The notes: generated by a model from the letters alone, not told the origin. A DNA stretch of 64,000 bases from Eubacteriales Family XIII. Incertae Sedis bacterium (GCA_031272365.1 JAISTX010000042.1:1-64000); one strand, 5' to 3'; shown: positions 25,544 to 30,564, counted from the first letter of the stretch. A program made the numbers and translations.

Positions 25544-26554
25544 ATGAAGAAACTTTGGCATGCCTTTCTGCTGTTTTTTGCGTTGCTGGCCATGGCGGCG
25601 GTTTTTTCCGCGTGCGGGGGGACGGGCGCGGGCGGCGCGTCCGGCGACGGCAGCGGCGGCACGGTCGGGCAAGCCATCTCGGACATCAAGAACAAGATCA
25701 CGGGAGGCGGCGGAACCATCAAGGAGGATGAGACTTTGCCAGACCGGGATCCGACGCCACAGGTGCTCGAAGACACGGCCACGGGGGTGGCGGTCTTCGG
25801 GGATCAGGGGGCGGCGGTCGACTATTCAAACATCAACGACGGCTACATCATGGTAAAGTACGAGGGGGACAATCCAAAAGTAAAACTGCAGATCACCAAG
25901 GACGGCGCGGACACCTACACCTACGACGTGGCGACGAACGCCGGGTGGGTCGCCTTCCCGATCCAGGAGAGCGGCGGCTACACGATCGCGGTCTTCCTCA
26001 ACATCAGCGGCGACCAGTACTCGCAGGCCGCGGCGGCCTCGGTCTCGGCGCAGCTCACGGACGAGTTCGCCCCCTTCCTGCGCCCGAACCAGTACTGCTA
26101 CTTCACGAGCGACTCCGAGGCGGTCGCGACGGGCGCGGAGCTCGCGGCCGGCGCGAAGAGCGACCTGAAGGTCATCGAGAACGTCTTCATCTACGTCACG
26201 GACAACGTGGCCTACGACTACGACAAGGCGAGCACGGTGCAGAGCGGCTACCTGCCGAACGTGGACGATACGCTCTCCTCGGGCGCGGGCATCTGCTTCG
26301 ACTACGCCTCGCTCACGACGGCCATGCTGCGCTCGCAGCGCATCCCGTGCCGGCTCGTCGTCGGCTACGCGGGGCAGGCCTACCACGCGTGGATCAGCGT
26401 GCACGTCGAGGGCATCGGGTGGGTGGACAACATGATCGAGTTCCACGGCGACACGTGGACGCGCATGGACCCGACGTTCGCGGCAAGCGGGGATCGGGCG
26501 GATCCGAACGTCATCGGCGACGGCACAAACTACAATCCGAAATATTATTATTGA
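25544..26554 (+). CDS. Transglutaminase-like lipoprotein
   Basis: 336 aa. A lipoprotein signal peptide has lipobox VFSAC (Cys24), followed by a Gly-rich linker. A beta-type domain at about 95-170 precedes a transglutaminase-core domain with the Cys-His-Asp triad: Cys251 in GAGICFDYA, His281 in AYHAWISV and Asp309 in RMDPTF. Such domains act as cysteine proteases or amidases on the outer face of the membrane. The gene is leaderless and sits just before the pilus operon, with a 76-base gap, so a role at the cell surface linked to the pilus is possible but unproven. Confidence 0.88.
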   Translation: MKKLWHAFLLFFALLAMAAVFSACGGTGAGGASGDGSGGTVGQAISDIKNKITGGGGTIKEDETLPDRDPTPQVLEDTATGVAVFGDQGAAVDYSNINDGYIMVKYEGDNPKVKLQITKDGADTYTYDVATNAGWVAFPIQESGGYTIAVFLNISGDQYSQAAAASVSAQLTDEFAPFLRPNQYCYFTSDSEAVATGAELAAGAKSDLKVIENVFIYVTDNVAYDYDKASTVQSGYLPNVDDTLSSGAGICFDYASLTTAMLRSQRIPCRLVVGYAGQAYHAWISVHVEGIGWVDNMIEFHGDTWTRMDPTFAASGDRADPNVIGDGTNYNPKYYY

Positions 26555-26630
26555 AAAAGGGGTGGATGAAAACCGATGGGTTATTATAATAGTAGAAACA
26601 CAGTGAGGATACACACCTCGGGAGGTCAGA

Positions 26631-27680
26631 ATGGCTGGTAAACTCAACCTGTCCGCAGAAGAACTCGCGGCTTTCAGCGCGCAGCTCGCGCTCACGGTGA
26701 AGACGGGGATCCCGCTTTCGGAGGCGGTGATGATCCTGCGGGACGAGGCCGACACGGAGCAGGCGAGGAAGCTGCTGGGCGCCATCTTGGGCAAGCTCGA
26801 AATGGGCGGCGCGCTCGCGGACGCGCTGCGGGACACGGGGGCCTTCCCCGCATACATGACGCAGATGGTCGAGATCGGCGAGGCGTCCGGGCGGCTCGAC
26901 AACGTGCTCGACTCGCTGCAGAAATACTACGAGCGCGAGGACAACATCAGCAAGAGCGCGAAGAGCGCGATCACCTACCCGGCGATCATGCTGGTCATCC
27001 TCGTCGTCATCATCGTCATCCTCGTGACGAAGGTGCTGCCGATCTTCGACCAGGTCTTCGAGACGCTCGGCGTGACGATGGAGGAGATGACGCCGCTCGC
27101 GGCCGGCGCGATGAGGCTCGGGAACGTGATCTCCAGCTTCTCGCTCGCGCTCGTCGTGATCATCGTCGTGATCGCGGCGGCCGTCATCATCCTGCGGCTC
27201 ACGAAGGGCGGCCGGCTGGGGATGGCGCACATGGCGCAGAAGCTCTTCCACACGCTCTCGGACCGCATGGCGGCCGCGAAGTTCGCCTCGGGCATGGCGC
27301 TCATGCTCGCGAGCGGGCTCGACGTCGACCGCTCGCTCGAGCTCACAGAGCCACTCATGGACAACCCGGTCATGCGCGACAAGGTCGAGAGGCTGCGCGC
27401 GTTCACGGGGATGGGCGGCGCGTTCACGGAGGGCGTCGTGGACGTGAAGATCTTCACGGGCATGCAGGCGCGGATGCTCACGCTCGGCTTCAAGTCAGGC
27501 AACCTCGACGTCGTCATGGACCACATCGCGGACGATTATGAAAAGGAAGTGGACGACCGGCTCGACCGGCTCATCTCGATCATCGAGCCGACGATGGTCG
27601 CGATCCTCTGCGTCATCGTCGGCCTCATCCTGCTCTCGGCGATGCTCCCCCTGCTCGGGGCGATGAGCTCGATCCTGTGA
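26631..27680 (+). CDS. pilC: PilC/GspF-family inner membrane platform protein
   Basis: 349 aa with two T2SS-F domains (about 10-130 and 215-340), each ending in hydrophobic helices. Three transmembrane segments are visible: LVILVVIIVILVTKVLP, LALVVIIVVIAAAVIIL and VAILCVIVGLILLSAMLP. The motifs GIPLSEA and LASGLDVDRSLEL are typical. It is the platform on which type IV pili or type II secretion pseudopili are assembled. It begins a six-gene operon ending in pilT. The start ATG 26631 has a CGGGAGG site. Confidence 0.93.
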   Translation: MAGKLNLSAEELAAFSAQLALTVKTGIPLSEAVMILRDEADTEQARKLLGAILGKLEMGGALADALRDTGAFPAYMTQMVEIGEASGRLDNVLDSLQKYYEREDNISKSAKSAITYPAIMLVILVVIIVILVTKVLPIFDQVFETLGVTMEEMTPLAAGAMRLGNVISSFSLALVVIIVVIAAAVIILRLTKGGRLGMAHMAQKLFHTLSDRMAAAKFASGMALMLASGLDVDRSLELTEPLMDNPVMRDKVERLRAFTGMGGAFTEGVVDVKIFTGMQARMLTLGFKSGNLDVVMDHIADDYEKEVDDRLDRLISIIEPTMVAILCVIVGLILLSAMLPLLGAMSSIL

Positions 27681-27699
27681 CGGGGCAAGGGGGCAGGTC

Positions 27700-28029
27700 A
27701 TGACCGGCAGGGTATTCAGGCCAAGACGGACGGCGGGCGCGGTGCGCACGGTGGTGTACATCCTCGTTCTGATCGCCTGCGTGGCCATCGTCTACTTCGG
27801 GCTGCAGAGCCTCGGGCGGACGCAGAGCGGCGAGCAGGCGAAGGTCGCCGAGGACGCGATCATCCGCGCGGCCGTGCAGTGCTACGCGCTGGAGTCGCGC
27901 TACCCGCCGAGCCTCGAGTACCTCGAGGAAAACTACGGGCTGATGCTCGACCACGACAAATTTGTCTACCATTACCGGGCGAACGGCACGAACCTGCGGC
28001 CGGAGATCGAGGTGTTTGCGTATGAATAA
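27700..28029 (+). CDS. Small membrane protein, pilus operon
   Basis: 109 aa with one transmembrane helix (VYILVLIACVAIVYFGL, about 19-35) after a basic N-terminus. A soluble domain follows with a pattern resembling pseudopilins (AEDAIIRAAVQCYALESRYPPSLEYLEENYGL). There is no classical prepilin cleavage motif. It starts at ATG 27700, 19 bases after pilC, and overlaps the next gene by eight bases. It probably functions as a minor pilin or pilus assembly factor; that is inference from position. Confidence 0.7.
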   Translation: MTGRVFRPRRTAGAVRTVVYILVLIACVAIVYFGLQSLGRTQSGEQAKVAEDAIIRAAVQCYALESRYPPSLEYLEENYGLMLDHDKFVYHYRANGTNLRPEIEVFAYE

Positions 28030-28504
28030 AGGCACGAGGAGCCATTCCTTCAATCTCGTATTCACGATCCTCCTGCTCGGGATCTTCGCCATGGCGGCGA
28101 TCTTCGTCGCGGTGCTGGGCGCGAAGATCTACGCGAACAGCGCGGAGAAGCTCCAGGCCAACTTCGACACGCGCACATCGATCGTCTACCTTTCGGAGAA
28201 GATCCGCACGAGCGCGGGGGCGGGCGGCGTGTCCGTGCAGGAGCTCGAGGGCGTGGGCGACGCGCTCGTGCTGACGGAGGCCGTGGACGGCAAGACGTAT
28301 GAGTCGTGGATCTACGTGCGGGACGGCGAGCTTTGCGAATCCACCGTGTCGGCGGGCGCGACGGTGCTGCCCGCGGCGGGGCAGCGGATCATGACGCTCA
28401 AGTCGTTTTCGGCGGAGGTCGTGGACGGGGGGGTCACCCTCCAGGTCCGCACGGCGGACGGCCAGACGGCCTGGACGTTCATCAGCGGGAGGGTGGACGG
28501 ATGA
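28022..28504 (+). CDS. DUF4860-like pilin-type membrane protein
   Basis: 160 aa from ATG 28022, with one N-terminal hydrophobic helix (LVFTILLLGIFAMAAIFVAVLGA) and a beta-rich extracytoplasmic region. It resembles DUF4860 proteins found in small clostridial pilus operons (from memory). It lacks the Glu at position 5 of classical type IV pilins. Its stop overlaps the next start (ATGA at 28501), showing tight coupling. Confidence 0.7.
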   Translation: MNKGTRSHSFNLVFTILLLGIFAMAAIFVAVLGAKIYANSAEKLQANFDTRTSIVYLSEKIRTSAGAGGVSVQELEGVGDALVLTEAVDGKTYESWIYVRDGELCESTVSAGATVLPAAGQRIMTLKSFSAEVVDGGVTLQVRTADGQTAWTFISGRVDG

Positions 28505-29004
28505 AGAAAAAAGCGATACAGGCGTCGAAATCCGCCATCTTCCTCTTCGAGCTCATGATCGTGATCCTCGTGTTCACGGTCGCCGCCGCGATCTGCTCCG
28601 AGATCTTCGCGAGCGCGTACGCGATGAGCAAGGAGTCGCGGGCGCTGACGATGAGCGCGATCAACGCGCAGACGGTCGCCGAGCAGTTCAAAGCCTCGGA
28701 CGGCGAGGCGGCGGACCCCCTGTATTTCGACAAGGACTGGAACGAGGTGCACAGCGCGGACGACGCGAAGTACGTCGTGGAGCTGCAGCGCCTGCGGCCG
28801 GACGACCCGGGCACCCCGGAGGAAGCGGACGAAGGCGCAGAGGACGCGGCGCTCGGCGAGTGGCGGCACGCGGCGGGGGACGACGCGGGCGAGGAGCTCG
28901 GCCCCCTGCACGTCGCGGACGTGTCGGTCTACGAGAAGGCGGCGGGCGAGCCCGTCGCATGGAAACGGGTTTACACGCTGACGGTAAAGGAGTATGTGGG
29001 CTGA
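28501..29004 (+). CDS. Type IV pilin-like protein
   Basis: 167 aa. A short basic leader is followed by SAIFLFELMIVILVFTV, which looks like a type IV pilin N-terminus. If cleaved after the Ala, the Glu falls at position +5 of the mature protein, as in classical pilins, although the usual Gly at -1 is replaced by Ala. The C-terminal part is acidic and low in complexity (EEADEGAEDAA), then DVSVYEKA. It is translationally coupled to both neighbours. No prepilin peptidase gene is in the window. Confidence 0.7.
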   Translation: MKKKAIQASKSAIFLFELMIVILVFTVAAAICSEIFASAYAMSKESRALTMSAINAQTVAEQFKASDGEAADPLYFDKDWNEVHSADDAKYVVELQRLRPDDPGTPEEADEGAEDAALGEWRHAAGDDAGEELGPLHVADVSVYEKAAGEPVAWKRVYTLTVKEYVG

Positions 29005-29471
29005 TGGCGAGAACGGCTTCCGGCGAAAGAAGGAACTCATTCGGCACCTCGATGGGGGTGTCGTCGGTGATCGCGATCCTGGTCATCCTCGTGCTGGTCG
29101 TCTTCGCGGCGCTCTCCATCACGACCTCGAAGGCGGACCTGACGCTATCGCAGAAGACCGCGGACGGGGTCCAGGCCTTCTACGCGGCGGACGGCGCGGC
29201 GGAGGAGCGCATGGCGGAGGTGGCGGCGGCGATCGAGGCGTCCCCGCGGGACTGGGCGGAGGCGCTCGGCGATGCGTATACGGTGGTACCGGACGGCACG
29301 GGCGGGAAGCTCATCCAGTACACGGAGCCGATCGACGAGCACCGGGATTTGGTCGTGGAGCTGCGCGCGGCGCCGAACGGCGCGCTGACGCGGAAGCTTT
29401 GGCAGGTGGTGTCGTCGGGCGACTGGACGGCGGACACCGGTTTGGATCTGTACATCCCCGAGCAGGGATGA
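29004..29471 (+). CDS. Minor pilin/PilX-like membrane protein
   Basis: 155 aa from ATG 29004, which overlaps the previous stop by one base (TGATG). An N-terminal helix (VSSVIAILVILVLVVFAALSI) is followed by a segment rich in Ala and Thr/Ser (TTSKADLTLSQKTADGVQAFYAADGAAEERMAEV), the kind of long amphipathic helix seen in PilX/GspK-like minor pilins. No enzymatic motif. Function inferred from the operon. Confidence 0.65.
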   Translation: MARTASGERRNSFGTSMGVSSVIAILVILVLVVFAALSITTSKADLTLSQKTADGVQAFYAADGAAEERMAEVAAAIEASPRDWAEALGDAYTVVPDGTGGKLIQYTEPIDEHRDLVVELRAAPNGALTRKLWQVVSSGDWTADTGLDLYIPEQG

Positions 29472-29490
29472 CGTGGGAACGGAGCAGGAT

Positions 29491-30564
29491 ATGGAATTGG
29501 TATTGGACACGATATTGCGCGAGGCCTCCGCGAAGGGGGCGTCGGACATCTACCTCGTTTCGGGCAAGCCGCTTTCGATGAAGGTCGGCGGCGTGATCGA
29601 GGAGGTGTCGGGGGAGCGGCTCATGCCGGACAACACCCAGGACCTCCTGCAGGAGATCTACGGGATGTCGCAGGGGCGCAACATCGCGCGCGTCGAGGAG
29701 TCCGGGGACGACGACTTCTCGTTCTCGCTGCCGGGGGTGGCGCGCTTCCGCGTGTCGGCCTTCAAGCAGCGCGGCACGCTCGCGGCGGTCATCCGCGTCG
29801 TGGCCTTCGACCTGCCCGACCCGACGGCGCTGTCGATCCCGCCCGTCGCGCTCGCCCAGGCCCAGCGCAAGAAGGGCCTCGTCCTGGTGACCGGCCCGAC
29901 GGGCAGCGGCAAGTCCACGACGCTCGCCTGCATCATCGACGAGATCAACAAGACGCGCAACGCGCATATTATCACGCTCGAAGACCCGATCGAATTTTTG
30001 CACCGGCACAACAAGAGCATCGTCAGCCAGCGCGAGGTCACGCTGGACACGCAGTCGTACGTGGTCGCGCTCCGCGCGGCGCTGCGGCAGGCGCCGAACG
30101 TGATCCTGCTCGGCGAGATGCGCGACTCGGAGACGATCGACATCGCGATGACGGCGGCGGAGACGGGGCACCTCGTGCTCTCGACGCTGCACACGGTCGG
30201 CGCGGCCAACACGATCGACCGCATCGTCGACGCCTTCCACGCCAACCAGCAGGGCCAGATCCGCGTCCAGCTCTCGATGGTGCTCGACGCGGTCATCAGC
30301 CAGCAGCTCGTCCCGCGCAAGGACGGCGGCATCGTGCCCGCCTTCGAGGTCATGATCGTCAACGACGCGATCCGCAACATGGTCCGCGAGAGCAAGATCC
30401 ACCAGATCGACGGCGTCATCACGAGCTCGGCGGCCGAGGGGATGATCACGATGGACGGCAGCCTCCTGAAGCTCTACAAGGAGGGCGTCATCACGGACAT
30501 CACGGCGGTGGCCTTCGCCACGCAGCCCGAGCTCATGAAGAAACGCATCGCCGGCGGGATGTAG
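29491..30564 (+). CDS. pilT: Type IV pilus retraction-type ATPase PilT
   Basis: 357-aa secretion ATPase. ATG 29491 is preferred over GTG 29473 because CGGAGC lies at the right distance and PilT proteins begin with this type of helix (ILREASAKGASDIYL). Walker A GPTGSGKST is at 135-143. An Asp-box region carries LEDPIEF, Walker B-like LLGEMRDSET follows, then the His-box STLHTVGAANTIDRI. The PilT-specific AIRNMVRE segment is present. No PilB extension ATPase is encoded, so this single motor may serve both directions or an unlinked PilB is used. A strong hairpin follows its stop. Confidence 0.93.
   Translation: MELVLDTILREASAKGASDIYLVSGKPLSMKVGGVIEEVSGERLMPDNTQDLLQEIYGMSQGRNIARVEESGDDDFSFSLPGVARFRVSAFKQRGTLAAVIRVVAFDLPDPTALSIPPVALAQAQRKKGLVLVTGPTGSGKSTTLACIIDEINKTRNAHIITLEDPIEFLHRHNKSIVSQREVTLDTQSYVVALRAALRQAPNVILLGEMRDSETIDIAMTAAETGHLVLSTLHTVGAANTIDRIVDAFHANQQGQIRVQLSMVLDAVISQQLVPRKDGGIVPAFEVMIVNDAIRNMVRESKIHQIDGVITSSAAEGMITMDGSLLKLYKEGVITDITAVAFATQPELMKKRIAGGM

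Follow-up and report, generated by a model that had tools for sequence, protein, structure and literature searches.

A conserved operon of Clostridia that joins PilC and pilin-like proteins to PilT, in genomes with and without PilB

Introduction

Type IV pili are extended by PilB and retracted by PilT. The operon described here, from a bacterium of Family XIII Incertae Sedis (Eubacteriales), encodes a platform protein, four small pilin-like proteins and PilT behind a transglutaminase-like lipoprotein, and contains no PilB. In the preliminary description of this DNA it was proposed that such a pilus runs on PilT as single motor. This raises the questions whether PilT is the only motor at hand, what the small proteins are, and which kind of machine these parts could form. 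In the literature searched, with subscription papers mostly outside its reach, no description of PilT-without-PilB systems was found, and no paper on DUF4860, the family of one of the small proteins, was found either.

The operon and its genes

The window, i.e. the whole stretch of 64,000 nucleotides that was analysed, lies on contig C22; the genome amounts to 2.92 Mb in 88 contigs and is about 89% complete. The seven genes are all on the plus strand. The transglutaminase-like lipoprotein (25544-26554) carries the lipobox FSAC and matches PF01841 (Transglut_core) with 70 bits (E 2.8e-19), confirming its earlier recognition ahead of pilC. It is separated by 76 bp from pilC (26631-27680), which encodes a short-form PilC/GspF platform protein (PF00482, T2SSF, 153 bits, E 5.6e-45; TIGR02120). 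This is a single two-domain T2SSF protein whose start corresponds to about position 57 of the GspF model, as does that of ComGB. There follow p3 (27700-28029), a small protein with a transmembrane helix, DUF4860 (28022-28504; PF16152, 77 bits, E 1.4e-21), p5 (28501-29004), p6 (29004-29471), a membrane protein, and pilT (29473-30564), which has a GTG start and encodes the module's only motor. The junctions from pilC to pilT measure +19, -8, -4, -1 and +1 bases; hence all five overlap or lie within 20 bases, one more than the four close junctions counted before.

As had been noted before, PilB and PilM/N/O-like proteins are without a match in the 64,000-nt window, and pilT is the sole PF00437 match on the window's contig. 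The operon itself also has neither a prepilin peptidase nor a canonical major pilin. A few genes past the operon, window:33258-35795 on the minus strand encodes a large exported-looking protein of 845 aa, which contains a DHGGG motif and by eye resembles clostripain.

Gene order and distribution

Since these genes recur in identical order in approximately 100 loci, the operon is not a chance arrangement. The order TG-pilC-p3-DUF4860-p5-p6-pilT, with TG the transglutaminase-like gene, is kept in most complete loci. DUF4860 is present in 17 of 61 relatives and p3 in 41 of 381 sampled genomes of the class (completeness at least 90%, contamination at most 5%). A contig scan covering 84,980 species was performed with a closer set of p3 sequences, the first p3 alignment being too diverse for a scan, and gave at least 367 confirmed p3 places, of which the best 80 were taken. 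Hosts among these best 80 are Family XIII (Anaerovoracaceae), Oscillospiraceae, Lachnospiraceae and Sedimentibacter, as well as Thermoclostridium, Fermentithermobacillaceae and some Coriobacteriales MAGs. The carriers comprise many gut and environmental Clostridia.

Variation concerns the two ends. In some lines the TG gene follows the operon or is in its neighbourhood; in one Thermoclostridium group no TG gene was found nearby, and in one Lachnospiraceae group the locus is without pilT. Locus L110 (L110:6874-10523) shows the variant order pilT-pilC-p3-DUF4860-p5-p6-TG, and in a relative of the same genus pilC is preceded by a tandem pair of transglutaminase-like genes (L041:3897-6149, the same locus as L087). 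Two whole, divergent operon copies share one 9 kb contig (L089:195-8845), and genome G377 has three p3 copies on three contigs; each may be real or an assembly effect.

The lipoprotein had been put forward as something to look for beside the operon in relatives. In most of them it lies upstream or downstream of the operon or in its vicinity, with an almost invariant triad (Cys 94/94, His 94/94, Asp 92/94); its nearest PDB structures are 3isr and 6g49. A simple lipobox pattern matches just 38 of the 94 copies, so some may not be lipoproteins. A BTAD/Trans_reg_C (SARP-like) regulator family adjoins the operon in 25 of the approximately 100 loci at a median of 79 bp (e.g. L161:4417-5754, L167:5794-6993 and L168:4940-6133); none was seen adjoining the operon of the window.

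PilT and PilC form clades of their own

The window's PilT scores 424 bits against TIGR01420 (PilT/PilU; cut-off 319), 137 bits against the ComGA model, which is under the cut-off of 300, and 46 bits against the TadA family. Its nearest PDB structure is the PilT of A. aeolicus (2ewv, 345 bits). The Walker A Lys, Walker B, His box and AIRN(L/M)IRE are kept in most copies, Walker A reading GPAGSGK in most operon copies and GPTGSGK in the window. In quick trees without bootstraps, with support by SH-aLRT, 60 of 61 operon PilTs group together (SH-aLRT 100) to the exclusion of every one of the 11 canonical PilTs, which include the second copy from the same genome, and all 40 operon PilCs are apart from the seven canonical PilCs (SH-aLRT 100). 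The PilT of L110 lies outside the main operon clade on a long branch.

The gene set resembles comGB-comGC-comGE/F/G, which could point to a DNA-uptake device, a ComG-like pseudopilus with PilT in the place of ComGA. Sampled carriers do have ComEC, but since it occurs in 386 of 393 genomes its co-occurrence says nothing on DNA uptake, and among the recurrent neighbours of the operon no competence gene stood out. We consider this reading very improbable.

Other pilus genes in the same genome

Four strong PF00437 matches are found in the window's genome: the PilT of the window, a second PilT (C30), a TadA-type ATPase (C81) and a PilB (C79; 408 bits, T2SSE and MshEN domains). On C79, pilM-, pilN- and pilO-like genes precede pilB, and the run of genes stops 23 bases short of the contig end; PilM shows a weak TIGR01175 match and the pilO-like gene a weak match to a GspM model, while the pilN-like gene gave no match to the family models. 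A second, full PilC is on C45, and C42 carries a prepilin peptidase and a canonical N_methyl pilin. Because of the PilB on C79, the idea of a single-motor pilus fails for this organism and was rejected. Repeats of the CTCAATTNTCAATT type (L009:10893-10974, L010:5026-5102 and L184:12945-12965) occur in several places in this genome as well as near the end of C30; they are possibly behind contig breaks.

A search of the genome for pilB and pilD had been proposed, a complete second set being expected to reduce the operon to an accessory one. Both genes are indeed present on other contigs. The operon might then supply extra minor pilins, PilC and PilT to a canonical type IV pilus driven by a PilB coded elsewhere, for which it speaks that other contigs of this genome carry PilB, PilD, canonical pilins and PilM/N/O-like genes, and that PilB is found in 24 of 49 carriers (see below). 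Against it stand the operon's own PilT and PilC clades and its persistence in the other 25 carriers, so that it is not merely accessory to the canonical pilus; moreover, six of the searched genomes have no peptidase and no T2SSE ATPase besides the operon's own. We judge the accessory role quite unlikely. Since the window's genome has PilB and peptidase, the two systems could share parts.

Motors and peptidases in carrier genomes

A PilB-type ATPase, defined as a PF00437 match of more than 300 bits (PilB or ComGA type), is present in 24 of 49 carriers and absent from 25. The latter all reach a completeness of about 90% or above, and some of them consist of a single contig or are near-closed; the motor count of G315 is ambiguous on account of fragments. 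A TadA-type ATPase is also present in most PilB-less carriers. The operon's PilT is the only PF00437 (T2SSE-family) match in six genomes, namely G186, G351, G263, G358, Negativibacillus massiliensis (G440) and Merdimmobilis hominis (G450), in none of which PF01478 (Peptidase_A24) was found. For N. massiliensis and M. hominis all first-look candidates were scored, and G186 is one contig, 100% complete. N_methyl prepilins are absent throughout G351, G263, N. massiliensis and M. hominis; G186 has three, and G358 has only its own p5. The genus of G358 keeps canonical signals, so there the peptidase may merely be missing from the draft.

PilT was not seen with every copy of the module. Genomes G160 and G299 (the latter 99% complete) retain pilC together with all four pilin-like genes (L172:6504-9170 and L186:7458-10273), and a genome search found no PilT in either. 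In G246 the operon is without pilT; the sole PilT of this PilB-less genome lies 40 kb away and is nearest to canonical PilTs. As it falls outside the operon clade, the view that the operon always has its own PilT was dropped.

The missing pilT of G160 and G299, together with lost prepilin cleavage sites (next section), is what one could expect of a decaying, functionless pilus operon. The open frames, gene order, motor motifs and transglutaminase triad are nevertheless conserved across many families, and we give decay next to no chance.

Pilin-like proteins and their signals

The helix described earlier as pilin-like, with Glu at +5 and Ala at -1, is that of p5, which reads MKKKAIQASKSA up to position -1 and IFLFE from there on. 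In the PDB the profile of p5 hits type IV pilins for the most part, consistent with a GspI/PilV-like pilin. The Glu is invariant in the alignment of p5 and is kept in 103 of 104 loci, with Gly at -1 in 21 of 104.

For DUF4860 an AF2 model (pLDDT 92) gave a weak result by Foldseek alone and a clear one in a second look with VIA, in which the ten best matches are type IV pilins/GspJ (EpsJ, XcpW) with Z of 9.8-8.7, the next being 5.1; the EpsJ/XcpW/GspJ structures among them score 9.5-8.7. DUF4860 is thus predicted to have the GspJ fold of a minor pseudopilin. Gly-1/Glu+5 are found in 13 of 106 copies; p5 has Gly-1 too in all 13 of these cases, and those on the PilT tree are mostly early-branching. 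Basal members retain both class III signals. From this distribution on the PilT tree, the ancestral state was probably cleavable, with the site lost in most of the family.

The p3 proteins form an unnamed family with the motif QCYALExxYPPSLxYL; for the window's copy no Pfam match reaches the cut-off of its family. Profile searches of the PDB with p3 and p6 gave no relatives. The AF2 model of p3 (pLDDT 89) has a weak Foldseek match, and the VIA second look is supportive, its top three matches all being type IV pilins (Z 8.3, 6.4 and 4.6, the first being PilA4), which suggests a type IV pilin fold for p3. No p3 copy has the Gly-1 signal; in five copies that fit the Glu pattern, position -1 is Leu, Glu or Arg. 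The p6 protein has an invariant Gly18 before the transmembrane segment in its alignment, no Glu+5 and a sub-threshold PilX_N match (E 0.011), and might, tentatively, be GspK/PilX-like.

Classical pilin polymerisation would not be expected without prepilin cleavage, which counts against the explanation preferred below. A non-filament machine was also considered, a minimal T2SS-like device of monoderms in which the pilin-like proteins stay uncleaved and anchored, PilT on PilC acts as a piston that exports or displays surface proteins, and the lipoprotein attaches or trims these. Most copies of p5 and DUF4860 have lost the cleavage Gly, which would fit this, as would the peptidase lacking in some genomes and a family including large repeat adhesins near the operon in 12 loci. 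The adhesin link nonetheless concerns a minority of loci, with two examples checked by Pfam, and p5 retains Glu+5, a residue with a role in the packing of pilin subunits. We hold this device to be unlikely. Giant repeat adhesins (Flg_new, YDG, MBG, MucBP) are seen at L119:10778-16267 and L168:1-3482 and are possibly substrates; a regex recount of InlB-type repeats gave only two loci, neither very close, so the link rests on BLAST clustering and is a lead only.

Proposed function

The absence of PilB from about half of the carriers suggests that a pilus-like structure may be built or operated by this module through a mechanism that is so far undescribed. Our preferred explanation, which we find somewhat better than evenly probable, is a distinct and ancient module, widely inherited and belonging to the type IV filament superfamily, in which PilT, instead of PilB, works a short pseudopilus-like complex. 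We infer the structure assembled, PilT as its driver, the motor direction, the roles of p3 and the lipoprotein, the transglutaminase target and the cell function along the following lines. PilC would be the membrane platform; DUF4860 (GspJ-like), p5 (GspI-like) and p6 (GspK-like) would form a minor-pilin initiation or tip complex, and p3, as a small pilin-fold subunit, could form the stem. PilT would dock on PilC, initiate or cycle the short complex of minor-pilin-like proteins and move it in and out of the membrane, so that a short, pseudopilus-like structure would form in place of a long pilus. The lipoprotein, exported and with a Cys-His-Asp triad, may crosslink or trim the protruding complex or its cargo. 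In its favour are the conserved gene order, the separate PilT and PilC clades, the carriers without PilB, G246 with its unlinked PilT among them, the kept motor and transglutaminase motifs, the predicted pilin folds and the MSHA precedent (see below). The PilT-less G160 and G299, the TadA-type ATPase of most PilB-less carriers, the PilB and peptidase of the window's own genome and the weak Foldseek match of the p3 model weigh against this explanation.

More tentatively, and with a probability that we put below even, these operons would represent a separate class of type IV filament machine, frequent in Clostridia, in which PilT alone assembles or drives, some hosts do without peptidase, and a dedicated transglutaminase-like lipoprotein acts on the outer parts. 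Cultured PilB-less bacteria with PilT as sole motor, some of them also peptidase-less, would offer a direct test of PilT-driven assembly and of whether pilin-like proteins work uncleaved. DUF4860 and the unnamed p3 family would at the same time gain a likely role in common gut bacteria.

Comparison with known systems

With the type IVa pilus the operon shares the PilC platform, a PilT with retraction-type motifs and minor pilins. It differs in having no PilB, PilM/N/O, peptidase or canonical major pilin, several carrier genomes being without PilB or peptidase altogether, and in that the class III signals are mostly lost (Gly-1 in 21/104 p5 and 13/106 DUF4860). The ComG pilus is similar in the short ComGB-like PilC, the run of small pilin-like proteins and the one ATPase, but the ATPase of the operon is of the PilT clade, not ComGA/PilB, and the DUF4860 and p3 families and the transglutaminase-like lipoprotein are additional. 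The GspI-GspJ-GspK tip of the T2SS pseudopilus resembles the set of p5 (GspI-like), DUF4860 (predicted GspJ fold) and putatively GspK-like p6, whereas the motor is PilT with no GspE, the hosts are mostly Gram-positive and the cleavage motif is mostly lost. The Tad pilus (CpaF/TadA) likewise has one ATPase per system, yet ATPase and platform of the operon belong to other families and there is no TadB/TadC pair. Finally, the MSHA pilus of V. cholerae provides a precedent for PilT in extension, since extension there requires PilT in order to begin, and PilT may aid the assembly of minor pilins (PMC9815625), although MSHA still requires the extension motor MshE.
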